Position numbers and translations under genes: made by a program. A stretch of 46,627 nucleotides of DNA, from the NCBI GenBank assembly GCA_024275955.1, contig JAJRYD010000050.1, positions 1-46,627 on the forward strand, written 5' to 3'. Below the pieces are notes generated by a model that was not told the DNA's origin, made no database searches, and saw only the letters and a program-made list of their open reading frames with translations. Source of the DNA: Nitrospirota bacterium. Its GTDB lineage: Bacteria; Nitrospinota_A; UBA7883; JACRGQ01. Below, in pieces: positions 16,623-39,615 of this stretch (positions are counted from its first letter, which is position 1; each line of letters starts with the position of its first letter).

Positions 16623-16651
16623 TTGACATATATGTTAGTTTTTATTAAATT
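16623..16651 (+). promoter_or_regulatory. Putative sigma-70 promoter of the porin-cytochrome gene
   Basis: A perfect -35 box TTGACA (16623-16628) is followed, after 17 bp, by TAAATT (16646-16651), a 4/6 match to TATAAT. The surroundings are very AT-rich. The expected transcript would start near 16658, leaving a leader of about 120 nt. Confidence 0.5.
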
Positions 16652-16657
16652 ACAGTC

Positions 16658-16781
16658 ACGGAGAAGCATCAGGTTGGCACCTTGGCATCATTCAAGTCTC
16701 CTTTAGGTCTTTGGAGGAATACTTGACAATAGGTGCCGGCTATTGTCGCAAACAGCACTTTTGATATTTATGAGGATTATT
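16658..16781 (+). promoter_or_regulatory. Structured mRNA leader with pseudoknot-capable hairpin
   Basis: The leader contains a perfect 8-bp hairpin, GACAATAG (16725-16732) with CTATTGTC (16740-16747), loop GTGCCGG. Bases AGGTGCC (16731-16737) at the end of the stem and in this loop are exactly complementary to GGCACCT upstream at 16676-16682, so the loop can pair back to form a pseudoknot. A second small stem (CTCC...GGAG) lies between them. This looks like a regulatory leader. I could not match it to c-di-GMP or other known riboswitch consensus sequences. Confidence 0.4.
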
Positions 16782-18170
16782 TTGAGCAAAAATTATTCAG
16801 CGCCTGTTTTGGCTGTAGTTATTCTTTTGGGCATAGGCTACTTTCAGCCAGCAGAGGCTGTTACAGCTTTTGCCAAGAAATACTCGGCTCCATGCACACT
16901 GTGCCATTCGTCGTGGCCCAGGCTCAATAAGGTCGGTTTTCAGTTTAAGGTGAACGGCTTTCAACTGCCGGGAGGGATGGACGGAAGTAAGGCTGGAAAG
17001 GTCTCCCCCGAATGGAACCTCCATCTCGATAGTGGCAGTGCCAACCCTCCACTCGGTTTGAGAGTGAGGGGCGGGTTGGTAGTTACTCAACCGGCCGATG
17101 ATAGCTACAGCGATCAGGAGAAAAACTATCTTTGCTGTACCGAAACAAACCGTCTGTCTCTCAATTCTGCCGGTACAGTCAAGAAGAATATCGGATATAT
17201 GCTCAATTACGAGCTGAACCCAAACGGCAACGGCATAGATCAGGGCTACTTGCGTTTTGTGAACATGTTCGGGCAGGGCTACTTAGGGATTGATCTTGGC
17301 GCGTTCTATACCGACGACTTTTCGCTGGTTCCTAAAAATAGAAACTGGTTTGGTGAAACAGATGCCGCCTACTATGGAAACTTGGGCTTAAGGGGGAGGA
17401 GCCAGGGAATGGCTTCCGGCTACGCTGATACCGGCTTTAGGGTTTACGGAAACCCTAATTACGGTATTTTTTCCTACGACCTTGTATATGTAACCGGCGG
17501 ACAGGCTGTCAATGGCCGTTATCGAGGGAGAGGCAAGGGAACATCTGTTATGGGTCGGGTCGAAGGTGAAAAATTCGGTGTTTCAGCCAGATTTTGGAGC
17601 AATAAAAGTTCTTCGCTTGTCTTTCGCAAGCTCACCGGCAGTAACAGAGTTGTCTACTACACCTCAGCCTTAGATGATGGTACAACCGTCGAATTTCTGC
17701 CGCTAAACAACAACCCTGACGAAGATACATCAGAAATTATTTTGAACATGAAATACGAGGTTCCAAAGTGGCAAGTTGAAGGTGTTTATGTACAAAACAA
17801 CTTCAAAGTAGGGAGCCGGACATCTGGCGCGAACAGTTTTTCCAGAAGCAACATTACCAGATCTGGCATAAGCATCGGCGGTATATACCGTTTTAGCAAC
17901 CTTCTTACTGGTGGGATGAGGTATAGCAGGTCGTCGATGAGTAGTTTTAGTGAGGTTTATAACGGCACTGCTACCAACATTTCGGCTTCAACGGTTAGTA
18001 GGCTGGATTTTCAGCTAGAGCTTGCGCCTGTACAGAACGCAAGGCTGATGTTTGGCGTAAATTTCGATGGTTCCGATATCGGATCGAGGGAGAAGGTCGA
18101 TTCGAATGGAAATATCGTTGAATATCAACAACAAACTAAGTTTGTCCTCTTATGGGATTGGGCTATCTAA
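16782..18170 (+). CDS. Outer-membrane porin-cytochrome c fusion, Cyc2-like
   Basis: Start taken as the TTG at 16782, which has GAGG 6 nt upstream and gives a clean signal peptide ending AEA. An ATG at 16770 is also possible. The mature protein (~437 residues) opens with FAKKYSAPCTLCHSSWP, a single CXXCH heme site followed by RLNKVG and a FQxxGFQLPG-type block. The remainder is rich in alternating polar and aromatic residues typical of outer-membrane beta-strands, and it ends in an aromatic strand (WDWAI). One heme fused at the N-terminus of a beta-barrel is the Cyc2 architecture, used for electron transfer across the outer membrane, for example in iron oxidation. The acceptor or donor here is unknown. 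No periplasmic cytochrome partner gene is adjacent. A terminator follows at 18208. Confidence 0.7.
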   Translation: MSKNYSAPVLAVVILLGIGYFQPAEAVTAFAKKYSAPCTLCHSSWPRLNKVGFQFKVNGFQLPGGMDGSKAGKVSPEWNLHLDSGSANPPLGLRVRGGLVVTQPADDSYSDQEKNYLCCTETNRLSLNSAGTVKKNIGYMLNYELNPNGNGIDQGYLRFVNMFGQGYLGIDLGAFYTDDFSLVPKNRNWFGETDAAYYGNLGLRGRSQGMASGYADTGFRVYGNPNYGIFSYDLVYVTGGQAVNGRYRGRGKGTSVMGRVEGEKFGVSARFWSNKSSSLVFRKLTGSNRVVYYTSALDDGTTVEFLPLNNNPDEDTSEIILNMKYEVPKWQVEGVYVQNNFKVGSRTSGANSFSRSNITRSGISIGGIYRFSNLLTGGMRYSRSSMSSFSEVYNGTATNISASTVSRLDFQLELAPVQNARLMFGVNFDGSDIGSREKVDSNGNIVEYQQQTKFVLLWDWAI

Positions 18171-18207
18171 CTCCTCCTCCTCTCTAATACCCAATTCCAT
18201 TATGGGT

Positions 18208-18242
18208 CCTGGAGTTGACGCACTCCAGGGCCTTCCTTTTTT
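18208..18242 (+). terminator. Intrinsic terminator after the porin-cytochrome gene
   Basis: CCTGGAGT (18208-18215) and ACTCCAGG (18222-18229) form a perfect 8-bp stem with a 6-nt loop, followed by a T-rich tract ending in six T residues. It lies 38 bp beyond the stop. The rest of the gap to 18607 holds no gene I can support, only AT-rich sequence with a possible TATAAT -10 box at about 18546-18551. Confidence 0.75.
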
Positions 18243-33076: not shown

Positions 33077-33432
<356 letters not shown>

Positions 33433-33433
<1 letters not shown>

Positions 33434-34743
33434 TGACTAATATTTATAAGAAACTGCCTGTCGTTTTATCGGCAGTTATGTTTGGTCTGTTTTTTACTTC
33501 TGACATCTCGTTCGCCGAAGAGGCTGTTTCCAAAATAGATACCGGCGACACCGCGTGGATGCTTATATCTACCGCCCTTGTGATGATAATGATACCGGGG
33601 CTTGCTTTCTTTTACGGCGGTATGTCCCGCAGTAAGAATGTGCTTAACTCGATAATGATGAGCTTTATAGCTCTTGGAGTTATGAGTATCCAATGGGTCG
33701 TCATCGGCTACAGCCTTGCGTTTGGCACTGGTAACAGCTTTATCGGCGACTTTTCTTTTGCCTTTCTCAACGGGGTAGGGCTGGAGGCTGGTGGGTTCGA
33801 CGGCTCCACCATACCGCATCAGGCGTTCATGGTCTTTCAGATGATGTTTGCCATTATAACCCCGGCACTTATTACAGGAGCTTTTGCCGAAAGGTTTAAA
33901 TTCAGCACATACATCGTATTTATTCTTTTATGGGGAACATTCGTCTACGACCCTCTTTGCCACTGGGTATGGGGCGGAGGCTGGATAGGACAGATGGGAG
34001 CGCTCGATTTTGCCGGCGGTCTTGTTGTTCATATGAGTTCCGGTATTGCCGGCCTTGCCTGTGCGCTGGTTCTTGGCAAACGAAAAGGATACCCAAAGGA
34101 GCCGATGCTCCCGCATAATCTTCCGCTTGTCGTTCTTGGCGCGTCACTGCTATGGCTCGGCTGGTTTGGCTTTAACGCCGGAAGCGCGCTAGCTTCAGGT
34201 GCCGGCGCGACCGGTGCTTTTGTCACCACACAGATAGCGGCAGGTAGCGCGATAATCGGATGGATACTCGCTGAATGGATTCATGGCGGCAAACCGACAA
34301 TGCTCGGCGCCGCTTCTGGCGCGGTGGCGGGGCTGGTTGCCATTACACCTGCCGCAGGTTTTGTTGGGCCTATCGCATCAATCACCATTGGTGGTCTCGC
34401 TGGTGTTATCTGTTATATCGCTGTAGTAGCCAAAGGCAGGTTCGGTTATGACGATTCGCTAGATGCTTTTGGTATTCATGGCATCGGCGGTATGTGGGGC
34501 GCTATCGCCACAGGTATCTTCGCCGTATCGGCGGTTGGCGGGGCAAATGGCCTCTTGGCTGGAAACGCCGGCCAGCTTGTTACGCAGTTGATAAGCATTG
34601 CCGGTACCGCGGCTTATGTTTTCATCGTAACTTTTATAATCCTCAAAGTACTTGACGCTGTTATGGGGCTAAGGGTTACGGAAGAAGAAGAGATGCAAGG
34701 ACTCGATATAGCTCTGCATGGTGAAAGTGGATATACCACTTAA
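33433..34743 (+). CDS. amtB: Ammonium transporter AmtB (first copy)
   Basis: A 436-residue Amt/MEP/Rh channel with signal peptide and about 11 membrane segments. Signature motifs are WMLISTALVMIMIPGLAFFYGG, DFAGGLVVHMSSG, HNLPLVVLGASLLWLGWFGFNAGS (twin-histidine channel first His in VVHM) and FGIHGIGGMWG (second His). It conducts ammonium into the cytoplasm and is a partner of the overlapping P-II gene. Confidence 0.95.
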
Positions 34744-34781
34744 CCGTGTAAGAGGTAACGCTGGACTTTAAGTTTGTTTTA

Positions 34782-34878
34782 ACGACAAGCCCTAACCTTT
34801 TGGTCGTGGGGGGCGAAAGCCCTCTCGGCCATATAAAAACTGAAAAAATAACAGGCTAAAAAAAGATTTCAACCTGTT
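34782..34878 (+). promoter_or_regulatory. Hairpins between the two amtB genes
   Basis: A GAAA-capped stem, GGGGGGC with GCCCTCT (34808-34825, two G-U pairs), is preceded by ACGAC/GTCGT. A second stem, AACAGG (34850-34855) with CCTGTT (34873-34878), lies just ahead of the second amtB ribosome site. No U-run follows, so this is a possible mRNA structure or processing site rather than a classical terminator. Confidence 0.35.
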
Positions 34879-34894
34879 TTAACGGGAGTAATGT

Positions 34895-36202
34895 ATGAAG
34901 AAAGAGTTTCTTTTTTCTCTGTTGGCACTTTTTGCTATAGCTGGACCAGCTTTCTCGGAAGAGATTCCAAGCGCCCCTGACGTACAGATGAATCTTAATT
35001 TTGTCTGGACATTGCTGGCGGCGTTTCTTGTATTTTTTATGCATGCCGGTTTCGCGATGGTGGAGGTAGGTTTTACGCAGGCCAAAAACGCTTCCAATAT
35101 ACTAATGAAGAATTTTATGAACTTTTGCATCGGTTCGCTTTCCTACTGGGCAATCGGCTTTGGAATAATGTTTGGAACGAGCAGTACCGGCTTTTTCGGC
35201 ACGGACGGTTTTTTTCTGAGCGATTTTATTAAAGATGGCGATCCGTGGCTCTATGCTTTCTGGATGTTTCAGGTTGTTTTCGCGGCAACCAGCGCCACGA
35301 TTGTTTCAGGCGCGATGGCGGAGCGGACAAAATTTTTAGGTTATCTTATCTACGCCGCTGTTCTTTGCGCCGTTGTCTATCCGATTTTCGGAAGCTGGGC
35401 ATGGGGAAGCCTTTACCACGGTAATGGCTGGCTAGAAAGCTTCGGGTTTATCGACTTTGCCGGTTCAACGGTTGTCCATAGTGTTGGCGGTTGGGCCGCG
35501 CTTGCAGGCGCGATAGTAGTCGGTGCCCGCCGCGGCAGATATTTGAAAAATGGAAATATAAGGCCTATCCCCGGCCACAACCTTCCTATGGCGGCCTTGG
35601 GGGTTCTCATCCTTTGGTTTGGCTGGTACGGGTTTAACGCCGGCAGTACAACTACCGGCAATTCCGATATAGCTTTGATAGCTGTCAACACGACGCTTGC
35701 CGCCGCCGCTGGCGGTGTTTTTGCACTAATGACTATGTGGGTTCGTACCGGCGTTCCCGATGTCGGCATAAGCCTCAACGGAGCGCTTGCGGGGCTGGTT
35801 GGCATTACCGCAGGTTGCGCTAACCTCACTCCGGTGTTTGCGGTAATTTCCGGTGCTATCGCCGGCGTGCTGGTTGTTTTGTCGGTTTCCTTTTTTGACA
35901 AACTCAAAATAGACGACCCTGTAGGAGCGATTTCTGTCCACGGTGTTTGCGGAGCGTGGGGAACATTGGCGGCAGGCATCTTTAACAGCGCGGAAATGTT
36001 TTCGCTAAAGATTATCGGCGTTCAGCTTCTTGGGATATTTTCATGTTTTATTTTTGTGTTTCCGGTTATGTACCTCGTTTTTAAGGTGATTGATAAGCTC
36101 GTAGGCTTAAGAGTAAGCGAGGAAGATGAATACAACGGGCTTGATTTTAGTGAGCATGGCGCAAACGCATATCCTGATTTCCCGATTTCAACTATTCGTT
36201 AA
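34895..36202 (+). CDS. amtB: Ammonium transporter AmtB (second copy)
   Basis: A 435-residue Amt channel clearly distinct from the first. It has a signal peptide (cleavage near AFSEE), FVWTLLAAFLVFFMHAGFAMVEVG, DFAGSTVVHSVGG, HNLPMAALGVLILWFGWYGFNAGS and ISVHGVCGAWGTLAAG. The channel histidines are kept. Together with copy one it gives a tandem pair. The NrfH-like gene follows 9 bp later, so it appears to belong to the same transcript. Confidence 0.94.
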   Translation: MKKEFLFSLLALFAIAGPAFSEEIPSAPDVQMNLNFVWTLLAAFLVFFMHAGFAMVEVGFTQAKNASNILMKNFMNFCIGSLSYWAIGFGIMFGTSSTGFFGTDGFFLSDFIKDGDPWLYAFWMFQVVFAATSATIVSGAMAERTKFLGYLIYAAVLCAVVYPIFGSWAWGSLYHGNGWLESFGFIDFAGSTVVHSVGGWAALAGAIVVGARRGRYLKNGNIRPIPGHNLPMAALGVLILWFGWYGFNAGSTTTGNSDIALIAVNTTLAAAAGGVFALMTMWVRTGVPDVGISLNGALAGLVGITAGCANLTPVFAVISGAIAGVLVVLSVSFFDKLKIDDPVGAISVHGVCGAWGTLAAGIFNSAEMFSLKIIGVQLLGIFSCFIFVFPVMYLVFKVIDKLVGLRVSEEDEYNGLDFSEHGANAYPDFPISTIR

Positions 36203-36211
36203 GGTTTTAAA

Positions 36212-36751
36212 ATGAAAAAAGGATTTGGCGAAAAGGTATTAAAAAGAGCCGACCGTAAGGTCGTCTTCGTTACTACCTTTGTTACGACAGTGGCGATGAG
36301 CATCATGTATATTTTCGTTACATGGTCGGTAGGTTTTACGTCGTCGGTCGACTTTTGTACGGTGAACTGCCACGAAATGACACCGCAGTATAGGGAGTGG
36401 CAGACTTCATCCCATTACAATAACGACACCGGAGTTGTGGCCGAATGCGCGGACTGCCACCTTCCGCCGTCGTTCATTCCTAAAATGATGGCAAAGACCT
36501 ACTACGGAGTTAGGGACACTCTTGTTCATTATTTTGGCGATCCTGAGAACCTTGACAGAAAAAAAATGGGCGAGTCTGCCGCGGCGAGCATCGTAAACGC
36601 CTCGTGCCAAACCTGCCATAAGAATCTTTTCCCTTCCGGGTTACCCAGAGGAGGCTTTTTGGCGCACCGCAGAATGGAAGGGGAAAAGCAAAAGTGCGTA
36701 TCGTGTCATCGTCACATGGCTCACCAAAACAGAATTTATTTTGATTCTTAA
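36212..36751 (+). CDS. NapC/NrfH-family tetraheme cytochrome c (membrane quinol dehydrogenase)
   Basis: A 179-residue protein with one N-terminal membrane anchor (residues ~17-38) and a periplasmic heme domain. Four heme sites: CTVNCH at 49-54, which is CX3CH and followed by EM as in NrfH heme 1, then CADCH, CQTCH and CVSCH. NapC/NrfH proteins pass electrons from membrane quinol to a periplasmic reductase. It lies 27 bp before an octaheme cytochrome, the same pairing as NrfH-NrfA or NrfH/CycX-HAO, and it is the likely electron donor or acceptor for it. Confidence 0.85.
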   Translation: MKKGFGEKVLKRADRKVVFVTTFVTTVAMSIMYIFVTWSVGFTSSVDFCTVNCHEMTPQYREWQTSSHYNNDTGVVAECADCHLPPSFIPKMMAKTYYGVRDTLVHYFGDPENLDRKKMGESAAASIVNASCQTCHKNLFPSGLPRGGFLAHRRMEGEKQKCVSCHRHMAHQNRIYFDS

Positions 36752-36777
36752 ATATTGAGAGGAAAAGAGAGTTTGAT

Positions 36778-38007
36778 ATGTTTTTAAAGAAACTGACTAT
36801 TATCTTAACCGTTTTTATGGTTTTTCTGGGGTCGGCGGCGGAAGCGAAAGCCGGCTCCGTTCGCTCTAAAGAGCTTAAAATTGCCGAAAAGTGCGTCTCG
36901 TGCCATGAAAAAGAATCTCCCGGTATTGTGAACGACTGGAAGTCGAGCCAGCATGCCCGCGGAAGAGTTACCTGTTACGATTGCCACAAGGCGGAAAAGA
37001 CCGACATAGACGTGCAACAGCACGAAGGGGCGTTGATTTCGGTTATTGTCAGTCCTAGAGACTGCTCCAGATGCCACTCCAAAGAGGTGAGGGAGTTTAA
37101 TGAGAGCCATCATTCAAAGGCAACAACCTTTTTAAGCGGCAAAACACCTGAAGGCAGGATTATGGACAACGTCCTCGGTTATGAAGTGCAAGGCAAAGAG
37201 TCCGCTATAGTTGGGTGTGAAAAGTGTCATGGGTCCAAGATTGAGCTTGGGAAAAACGGAACCTTGACAGCGGAAACATGGCCCAACCAGGGAATTGGCC
37301 GAATAAACCCCGATGGAAGCGCTGGTTCCTGCACCGCTTGTCATTCTCGGCACAAATTTTCTATTGCCGAGGCGCGTAAACCGGAAACCTGCGGTACATG
37401 CCATATAGGGCCGGACCATCCGCACATCGAAATTTATATGGAATCGAAACATGGGGTTATCTATGCTAACGAGAAAGAGACATGGAACTGGGATATAGCT
37501 GGTAGCAACTGGGATACTCAATACTACCGCGCCCCCACATGCGCCACCTGCCATATGTCCGGTATAGGCAATGTGGAGTCTACCCACAATGTAAGCTCGA
37601 GGCTTTCATGGAAACTGGCATCGCCAAGAAGCGAACCGAGGAAGAACTGGAGAGAGAAAAGGGAGACTATGCAAAAGGTCTGTAGAAACTGTCACTCTAC
37701 AAACTGGGTAAAAGGTTTTTATCAGCAGGGAGACAATGCTATAAAACTTTATAACGAGAAATTCTATGACCCGATTAAAGCTTTGATGGACGGTTTGTAC
37801 CTTGACGGCCTGCTTACGGAAAAGAAGTTTGACGAGGAGCTTGAGTTTAAGTTTTTTGAATATTGGCATCACGAAGGCCGCAGAGCGAGAGCCGGAGTTT
37901 TTATGATGGGAGCAGACTACGCCCAGTGGCACGGGTTCTATGAGCTTGCCCGCAATAAGCTTGAAATAGAGAGGCTTATCAAGGAGAAGAGGGAAGGAAA
38001 GCATTAA
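36778..38007 (+). CDS. hao: Octaheme cytochrome c, hydroxylamine oxidoreductase (HAO) family
   Basis: A 409-residue protein with a signal peptide (cleavage after AKA, residue ~25). I count eight CXXCH sites: CVSCH (39), CYDCH, CSRCH, CEKCH, CTACH, CGTCH, CATCH and CRNCH. HAO-family marks are ESKHGVIY, the C-terminal WHHEGRRARAGVFMMGADYAQWHGFYE, and the long helical end. The family includes HAO, hydrazine dehydrogenase and the reductive epsilon-proteobacterial HAO that makes hydroxylamine or ammonium from nitrite. Whether the cross-linking tyrosine is kept (Tyr381 in DYAQWHG is one candidate) I cannot decide without alignment. No cytochrome c554 or ammonia monooxygenase gene is near, and pairing with a NrfH-like donor favours a reductive role. 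Confidence 0.85.
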   Translation: MFLKKLTIILTVFMVFLGSAAEAKAGSVRSKELKIAEKCVSCHEKESPGIVNDWKSSQHARGRVTCYDCHKAEKTDIDVQQHEGALISVIVSPRDCSRCHSKEVREFNESHHSKATTFLSGKTPEGRIMDNVLGYEVQGKESAIVGCEKCHGSKIELGKNGTLTAETWPNQGIGRINPDGSAGSCTACHSRHKFSIAEARKPETCGTCHIGPDHPHIEIYMESKHGVIYANEKETWNWDIAGSNWDTQYYRAPTCATCHMSGIGNVESTHNVSSRLSWKLASPRSEPRKNWREKRETMQKVCRNCHSTNWVKGFYQQGDNAIKLYNEKFYDPIKALMDGLYLDGLLTEKKFDEELEFKFFEYWHHEGRRARAGVFMMGADYAQWHGFYELARNKLEIERLIKEKREGKH

Positions 38008-38196
38008 AGCCTGTTATTGAATAAGGAGGCTGACTGCTGGGAAAAAAGTTAGGGATTATAACCGAGCTATTGTGGTAAACTTTGCACGGAATTTAAGGGG
38101 GGTAATCTCAGGTTTAACCGGCGGCGATTTTATCATTCGCGGTTGATTTGGGGATTAGCGTATCGCTTTTCGATTTTTTTTGGAGGACTTTGGTAA

Positions 38197-39615
38197 ATGA
38201 GTATGACCGCGAAAGATGTAGTTAAGTTTATAAAAGACAACGACGTGAAATCTGTTGATTTCAAGTTCATGGACTTTCCCGGGCTGTGGCAACATACCAC
38301 TTTTCCGTCGCGCGAAATTGACGAAGCTGTATTCGAGGAAGGGCAGGGCTTTGACGGTTCTTCCATAAGAGGATGGCAACCTATACATGCCTCCGATATG
38401 CTTCTTATCCCCGATTCTTCGACGATGGTTATCGACCCGTTTTACGACAGGAAAACAATTAGCCTTGTGTGCAACATAGTTGACCCGATTACCCGCGAAG
38501 GCTATAGCCGCGACCCACGCTACATCGCCCAGAAAGCGGAAGCATACCTTAAATCGACAGGTATCGGCGACACTATATACTTCGGTCCTGAGGCGGAGTT
38601 TTTTATTTTTGACGATGTGCGCTACAGCACGAAGCCAGGACATTCGTTCTTCCATGTTGATTCGGTAGAAGCGCAGTGGAACACAGGCCGTGAAGAAAAC
38701 CCTAACCTCGGCTACAAACCTAGATACAAGGAAGGCTACTTTCCCGTTCCGCCGACCGATTCCTACGCCAACCTTAGAAACGAAATGGTAGGTGTGATGG
38801 AAGATTGCGGGCTTCATGTCGAATGCCAGCACCACGAGGTAGCTACTGCAGGACAGGCCGAAATTGATATGCGGTTCGGCTCCCTTGTGAAGATGGCGGA
38901 CGACCTGAACCTCTTTAAATATATAATCAAGAACGTAGCCCGCAGAAACGGCAAAACAGCTACCTTTATGCCAAAACCTGTTTTGGACGATAACGGTTCC
39001 GGCATGCACTGCCACCAATCTATATGGAAAGACGGCAAACCGCTTTTTGCCGGAAGCGGATACGGCGGCATGAGCGAGACAGCTCTCCACTATATAGGAG
39101 GTCTGCTTAAGCACGCGCGCGCTATTGCGGCACTTGTCGCTCCAACGACGAACTCTTACAAGAGGCTGGTGCCAGGCTTTGAGGCTCCTGTTAACTTGGC
39201 ATACTCCAGCAGAAACAGGTCTGCCGCTATCCGTCTGCCGATGTACTCCGCAAGCCCAAAAGCAAAGAGGATAGAGCTAAGGTTCCCAGATCCTTCATGC
39301 AATCCTTACATAGCATTTGCCGCAATGGCGATGGCCGGTATGGATGGAATCCAGAACAAGATTGACCCCGGTGAGCCGCTCGATAAGGATATTTACGGCC
39401 TTTCGCCGGAGGAGCTTAGCGAGATACCGTCTCTTCCAAGCTCACTTGACGAAGCTCTTGCCGCTCTTGAAGAAGATCACGAGTTTCTCCTCAAAGGTGA
39501 TGTATTTACCGAAGATGTTATCGAGACATGGATCGAGTACAAGCGGGAAAACGAAATTGACAAGGTAAACAAAGCTCCACACCCTGTCGAGTTTGAACTT
39601 TACTACGATATCTAG
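38197..39615 (+). CDS. glnA: Glutamine synthetase type I
   Basis: A 472-residue GSI-beta type enzyme. Motifs: [18 protein letters not shown]-like block ([20 protein letters not shown]), an ATP-binding [13 protein letters not shown], and the adenylylation tyrosine in DKDIYGL (about residue 400). It makes glutamine from glutamate, ammonia and ATP, and is probably shut by adenylylation of that tyrosine through GlnE and P-II. A good GGAGGA ribosome site precedes the ATG. It is 189 bp past the octaheme cytochrome. I did not find a sigma-54 promoter with correct spacing in that gap. Confidence 0.96.

Follow-up and report, generated by a model that had tools for sequence, protein, structure and literature searches.

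A Cyc2-like monohaem cytochrome-porin fusion in Nitrospinota class UBA7883

The haem-porin locus

The window, the whole stretch of 46,627 nucleotides analysed here, comes from a genome (2.45 Mb, 98.4% complete) of Nitrospinota class UBA7883. Its forward strand carries an open frame at 16743–18170, with candidate starts at TTG 16743, ATG 16770 and TTG 16782 and a stop at 18170; ATG 16770 and TTG 16782 are the plausible starts. An earlier note on this DNA placed the ORF at 16782–18170, where the frame is indeed open, and because a GAGG lies at 16772–16775, about 7 nt 5' of TTG 16782, that start is possible. The product is 465 aa long, counted from the residue after ATG 16770. It begins with a hydrophobic leader ending in QPAEA, in keeping with the signal peptide proposed earlier, although here judged by eye, and continues with VTAFAKKYSAPCTLCHSSWPRLNKVGFQFKVNGFQLPGGMDG. 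The upstream promoter-like element is considered weak because matches in the region are not above shuffle expectation. Downstream of the stop, a strong hairpin is followed by a T-rich tail, which suggests that the gene may be transcribed as a single-gene unit in the window (Table 1).

Table 1. Features of the haem-porin locus, in window coordinates
Feature	Position	Strand	Support
Sigma-70-like promoter, TTGACA-N17-TAAATT, 5' of the haem-porin gene	16623..16651	+	Consensus match 10/12; weak
Monohaem cytochrome-porin fusion (FAKKY-type, Cyc2-like)	16770..18170; alternative start TTG 16782	+	ORF; orthologue in 20/23 class genomes
Signal-peptide-like N-terminus ending ..QPAE	16770..16856	+	Sequence by eye; helix 11–23 in AlphaFold2 model
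N-terminal monohaem domain, residues 29–93: AVTAFAKKYSAPCTLCHSSWPRLNKVGFQFKVNGF; CXXCH C41-C44-H45, PRL at +4	16857..17051	+	Invariant CXXCH; pLDDT 69–89 over residues 31–70
Predicted 16-stranded porin barrel, residues 94–464	17052..18164	+	AlphaFold2 and Foldseek
Codons of vicinal cysteines C121-C122, predicted extracellular loop L1 / top of strand 2	17133..17138	+	18/18 clade members
Intrinsic terminator-like hairpin, then TTCCTTTTTTG	18204..18233	+	34 nt past stop; 12 bp stem, 7 GC pairs

A single CXXCH (C41, C44, H45) stands between AVTAFAKKY and SSWPRLNKVG, as the earlier note had it when it described one haem in a FAKKY-type start with RLNKVG. The motif appears in 0.013% of shuffles of the same residues and is kept in all 16 aligned orthologues. 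No second invariant His or Met that could act as distal haem ligand was found in the haem domain of the aligned members of the orthologue group, hereafter the FAKKY clade; Lys59 is nearly invariant over a 40-sequence set. Pfam and PDB sequence searches with the query and its profile returned no meaningful match and NCBIfam only chance-level ones, and NCBIfam and PDB searches with relatives gave no useful match. Such genes can easily stay annotated as hypothetical proteins, since none of the cytochrome-porin fusions tried was recognised by a Pfam or NCBIfam model.

The C-terminal part is predicted to form a barrel. AlphaFold2 with 40 relatives (pLDDT 79.7, pTM 0.82) gave 16 long strands and ordered residues 31–70, with helices at 32–37 and 53–60; with 16 relatives it also gave a 16-strand barrel, the haem domain falling below pLDDT 50. 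In Foldseek the 40-relative model matched 16-strand porins, with Vibrio cholerae OmpT best (2.7e-14), chitoporin, Omp32 and OprO (1e-11), and OprP was among the matches of the 16-relative model. In the strand boundaries of the 16-relative model, long connections of 20, 6, 38, 13, 38, 14, 16 and 22 residues alternate with short ones of 2, 8, 6, 3, 3, 4 and 2. This alternation would have the haem domain at the N-terminus face the periplasm, as in porins with a periplasmic N-terminus, and the third long loop, of 38 residues, is positioned in the model like a constriction loop. The last strand, TKFVLLWDWAI, has a terminal I with W two residues earlier, so that the protein ends in ..VLLWDWAI. The roughly 400 residues of beta-strand pattern with an aromatic end that had been read from the sequence are thus recovered as a barrel in both models, with a near-terminal aromatic. 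The architecture of a one-haem cytochrome fused to a 16-strand porin is supported.

Within this barrel, the adjacent cysteines C121 and C122 are invariant in the FAKKY clade and missing from the other homologue groups in the alignment. Besides the two haem cysteines, 16 of the 18 clade members have exactly two more, and these are adjacent; of the remaining two members, one has two extra cysteines and the other one. This vicinal pair is new anatomy, and we propose that it binds metal or takes part in redox chemistry at the outer mouth of the pore.

Homology and distribution

Keffer et al. recognise Cyc2 by its length, one CXXCH, the motifs AXPXFAR[QK][TY] and PXL, and a 16-strand porin modelled on OprP/OprO (PMC8406198). 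The Cyc2 pipeline requires a haem-binding site and a minimum length of 365 aa, and AXPXFAR[Q/K][T/Y] ahead of the haem motif is stated to be unique to Cyc2 (PMC8406198). Biochemical evidence for Fe(II) oxidation exists for Cyc2 proteins from three clusters, and the characterised homologues are oxidases with potentials of +208 mV and +560 mV (PMC8406198). The window protein has the length, the single CXXCH, the PXL at +4 and an OprP/OprO-related 16-strand barrel, but not the FAR motif: its AVTAFAKKY matches five of the seven fixed positions, with T for P. The motif is complete in 0/18 FAKKY clade members, which match a mean of 5.4 of the 7 fixed positions, and K replaces the R of FAR in 16 of them. 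PXL lies four residues after CXXCH (P49-R-L51 in the window copy), likewise in 16/18.

Profile comparison by hhalign nevertheless gave full-length homology, at 4.1e-39 over 394 columns, between the FAKKY clade and a set of gammaproteobacterial/Ca. Tenderia and other fusions (L047–L052 plus L053, L054, L089 and L090), in which the Cyc2 motif is complete in the gammaproteobacterial members. Full-length homology also extended, at 1.4e-13, to the FARQ-type paralogues described below. Taken with the incomplete FAR motif, this leads us to call the protein Cyc2-like, a member of the same superfamily and not Cyc2 sensu stricto. This homology and the predicted barrel bear out the fused monohaem porin claimed earlier.

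Compared with Cyc2/Cyt572 of Acidithiobacillus, Mariprofundus PV-1 and Leptospirillum, the protein shares a signal-like N-terminus, an N-terminal CXXCH, an FA-x-K-Y start, PXL at +4, a 16-strand porin and a length above 365 aa, whereas the R-to-K and P-to-T changes in and near FAR, the L1 Cys pair and the lack of a cytochrome neighbour set it and its clade apart. The FARKY fusions of Gammaproteobacteria and Ca. Tenderia (L047–L052) resemble it in the FARKYxxxC and NGYQMP..DG motifs, but their barrel is longer, with additional loops, their AXPXFARKY is complete and they lack the Cys-Cys pair. MtrAB/MtoAB likewise place a haem cytochrome in an outer-membrane barrel for electron movement, but they combine a separate decahaem cytochrome with a 26-strand barrel, in contrast to one haem and 16 strands in one chain, and their layout of a multihaem cytochrome beside a porin was not found, as no multihaem gene is adjacent at the locus.

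A family profile search gave strong orthologue matches (E < 1e-100) in 20 of 23 class UBA7883 genomes and no strong match in one genome from another Nitrospinota class. Scanning of GTDB-220 contigs with the single query sequence returned nothing, whereas the family alignment retrieved 15 FAKKY clade loci and nine distant homologues from other groups. All 15 clade loci lie in class UBA7883 genomes or in MAGs named Nitrospinota, Nitrospinales or Nitrospinaceae, and no orthologue of the clade was found outside class UBA7883 in these contigs or in the one other-class genome. The MAGs with relatives are Nitrospinota from groundwater and the deep sea. In one relative (L008/L035, G010:C312) the FAKKY gene is broken by an in-frame TAA, for which a sequencing error or a decaying copy is possible.

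The FAKKY orthologues form one clade in the tree (17/17 rows, support 100/99), and its subclades, which separate the window's family from the rest, indicate mainly vertical descent. The earlier note had called for a tree with Cyc2 clusters and other haem-porin fusions. The latter part was realised, with the FAKKY clade separate (100/99) from FARQ types; the tree stands without any functionally tested Cyc2 sequence and without reference sequences of the three published Cyc2 clusters.

The window's genome also encodes a FARQ-type paralogue of 405 aa (L002, G000:C29:103853–105067; AIPSFARQVGVGCDACHFQHLPKLNAFGREFK), and FARQ types occur in 15/23 class UBA7883 genomes. They group in the tree with the FARQT proteins of Methylocystis and Caballeronia plasmids. 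L002 resembles the window protein in its monohaem N-terminal domain and barrel but is only about 15–19% identical, has no L1 Cys-Cys, carries PXL at +5 and falls in a separate clade (100/99).

Genomic surroundings and host respiration

The neighbours of the haem-porin gene in the window are MltG (YceG), a TerB-DnaJ protein and a response-regulator HD domain protein. MltG is kept near the gene in part of the window's family, and DnaJ-TerB is too in one relative. Given these neighbours and the gene's own terminator-like hairpin, a redox operon in the window's family was rejected. Loci from the class's other families show two closely spaced same-strand genes behind the haem-porin gene, first one for a HAD phosphatase and then one for a small CxxCxxCC protein (8/9 loci that are long enough); in L037 the HAD gene alone follows. 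The Pfam CxxCxxCC match, annotated as putative zinc/iron-chelating, reaches 21.0 bits, just under the cut-off of 23. This arrangement is not kept in the window's own family, and such operon partners in the sister families do not suggest respiration.

The absence of an adjacent partner cytochrome, noted earlier, was confirmed: the nearest other haem genes in the window lie at 36.2–38.0 kb. Across 16 clade loci, no further same-strand haem gene was found within 4 kb, some contigs ending within that distance; in L041 a three-CXXCH gene lies nearby on the opposite strand. Four proteobacterial plasmid homologues (Ideonella, Methylocystis, Caballeronia and Polymorphobacter) each adjoin a c-type cytochrome gene, as does one Ca. 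Tenderia copy. The search for periplasmic partners elsewhere in the genome, which the note had recommended, yielded several Cytochrom_C proteins of 116–128 aa as candidate soluble partners.

Further along the window, one run (33095–39615) holds a GlnK-like gene, two ammonium transporter-like proteins, an NrfH/NapC-type cytochrome (36212–36751), an octahaem-type cytochrome of the Multi-haem_cyto/HAO-like group (36778–38007, eight CXXCH; partial NCBIfam match to hydrazine dehydrogenase) and glutamine synthetase. It is possibly a nitrite-to-ammonium system tied to nitrogen assimilation.

PMC10839748 places nNGHbin12 in class UBA7883, and describes the class as uncultured and mostly from groundwater and the phylum as fixing CO2 by the rTCA cycle. 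It names sulfide, H2 and formate as electron donors in non-Nitrospinia classes, and caa3, cbb3 and bd-like oxidases in those classes, class UBA7883 included (PMC10839748). In the window's genome, CcoN scores above its curated cut-off, a two-haem CcoP-like gene lies at C16:74637–75146, and many soluble c-type cytochromes are present. Of the "menaquinone anaerobe" proposed in the earlier note, the first word agrees with MqnE inside the window, above its curated cut-off, and a VitK2_biosynth (MqnA/D-type) match; the second is not supported, given the cbb3 oxidase and its accompanying cytochromes.

Other haem-protein runs were seen in the same genome, two of them (L130 and L129) annotated mostly by eye. 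L130 (G000:C25) resembles alternative complex III, with a five-haem protein and a molybdopterin-like subunit that matches QrcB below cut-off, and L129 (G000:C40) has a CydA-like gene beside several cytochromes c. At L134:8662–10278 (G000:C34), a cytochrome c plus propeller protein resembles cd1 nitrite reductase and has putative haem-d1-type genes as neighbours.

Possible function

The ORF, haem motif, barrel, topology, homology and conservation are backed by computation; the outer-membrane location, substrate, direction of flow and partner are inferred. We give a probability of about 0.5 to the reading that the protein is an outer-membrane cytochrome-porin of the Cyc2 superfamily that takes electrons from a small dissolved donor and passes them to soluble cytochrome c and an oxidase. 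After export, one haem c would be covalently attached and the C-terminal 370 residues would insert as a 16-stranded porin, and the haem domain would plug its periplasmic mouth. The reductant, small and in solution, would come in through the pore from outside and reduce the haem; Fe(II) or some other one-electron donor, metallic or organic, is the most likely candidate. The L1 vicinal cysteines may serve at the outer mouth in metal binding or redox chemistry. The electron would then move to a soluble monohaem cytochrome c and on to a cbb3 or bd-like oxidase. Fe(II) is a plausible leading candidate by homology only. Electron entry is favoured by the Cyc2 homology and by the soluble cytochromes c and cbb3 oxidase of the genome, and disfavoured by the lack of a same-strand cytochrome partner, the incomplete FAR motif and the more canonical paralogue. 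That paralogue, L002, could be the iron oxidase of the same genome, which counts against an iron role for the FAKKY protein.

The lack of a cytochrome partner would also fit a metal-handling or redox-gated porin of the outer membrane with a housekeeping role, for instance in metal reduction for uptake, or in the detection or detoxification of soft metals by way of the vicinal cysteines. Near-universal and mainly vertical conservation (20/23 genomes, with subclades following family groups), the invariant vicinal cysteines at the predicted outer face and the tight operon with the HAD phosphatase and CxxCxxCC protein in sister families all point the same way. We nevertheless consider a housekeeping role somewhat unlikely, as the homology to Cyc2-type proteins spans the full length, a covalently bound haem is a high price for a pore that merely serves uptake, and the operon is missing in the window's family, with a CxxCxxCC match just under the Pfam cut-off. 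Sequence alone does not give the direction of electron flow, and porin-cytochrome conduits such as MtrA, which can run in both directions (PMC10734462), offer a precedent for export, in which periplasmic cytochromes would be the source and dissolved compounds, for example Fe(III) chelates, humics or other metals in oxidised form, the acceptors. Such export appears improbable here, since the homologue potentials of +208 mV and +560 mV (PMC8406198) are high for Fe(III) reduction at neutral pH and the organism has oxygen reductases. Least probable, and by our estimate very much so, is an outer-membrane haem protein with no part in electron transfer, its five-coordinate haem serving small-ligand binding or enzymology: the missing invariant second His or Met would suit it, but Lys59 is nearly invariant in the 40-sequence set and the lack of a distal ligand assignment applies equally to Cyc2 here.

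A more specific and doubtful idea is that the FAKKY clade is a branch of the Cyc2 superfamily with a function of its own, which class UBA7883 has kept from its beginnings. An extracellular vicinal-Cys site and the plug haem would then together bind some metal that is not ordinary Fe(II) and oxidise (or reduce) it, and in part of the class the HAD phosphatase and CxxCxxCC protein would assist as accessory factors.

Under the preferred reading of electron entry, a class-wide outer-membrane monohaem conduit, together with a FARQ paralogue in 15/23 genomes, would add dissolved metals to the possible donors of these rTCA autotrophs. The haem-porin may thus serve to supply groundwater and deep-sea bacteria with electrons from dissolved external donors, and the Cys-Cys site is a concrete target for mutagenesis. 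For the window gene, the earlier note had missed the FARQ paralogue, the conservation across the class, the invariance of the Cys-Cys pair and the sister-family operon.

Other monohaem porins

Several further observations concern related porins. L002 lies near CcmF/CcmE-like genes (L075:11411–13821), and CxxC-type cysteines occur in the FARQ barrel of several class relatives. At L089:7474–9739 (G020), the gene of a FARKY-type monohaem porin lies 56 nt from a same-strand gene for a two-haem cytochrome. In a class relative (L090:8798–11092, G011), a QWARKY-type monohaem porin is followed after 5 nt by a small cytochrome c and then by a three-haem protein, a run that makes a compact candidate electron conduit.
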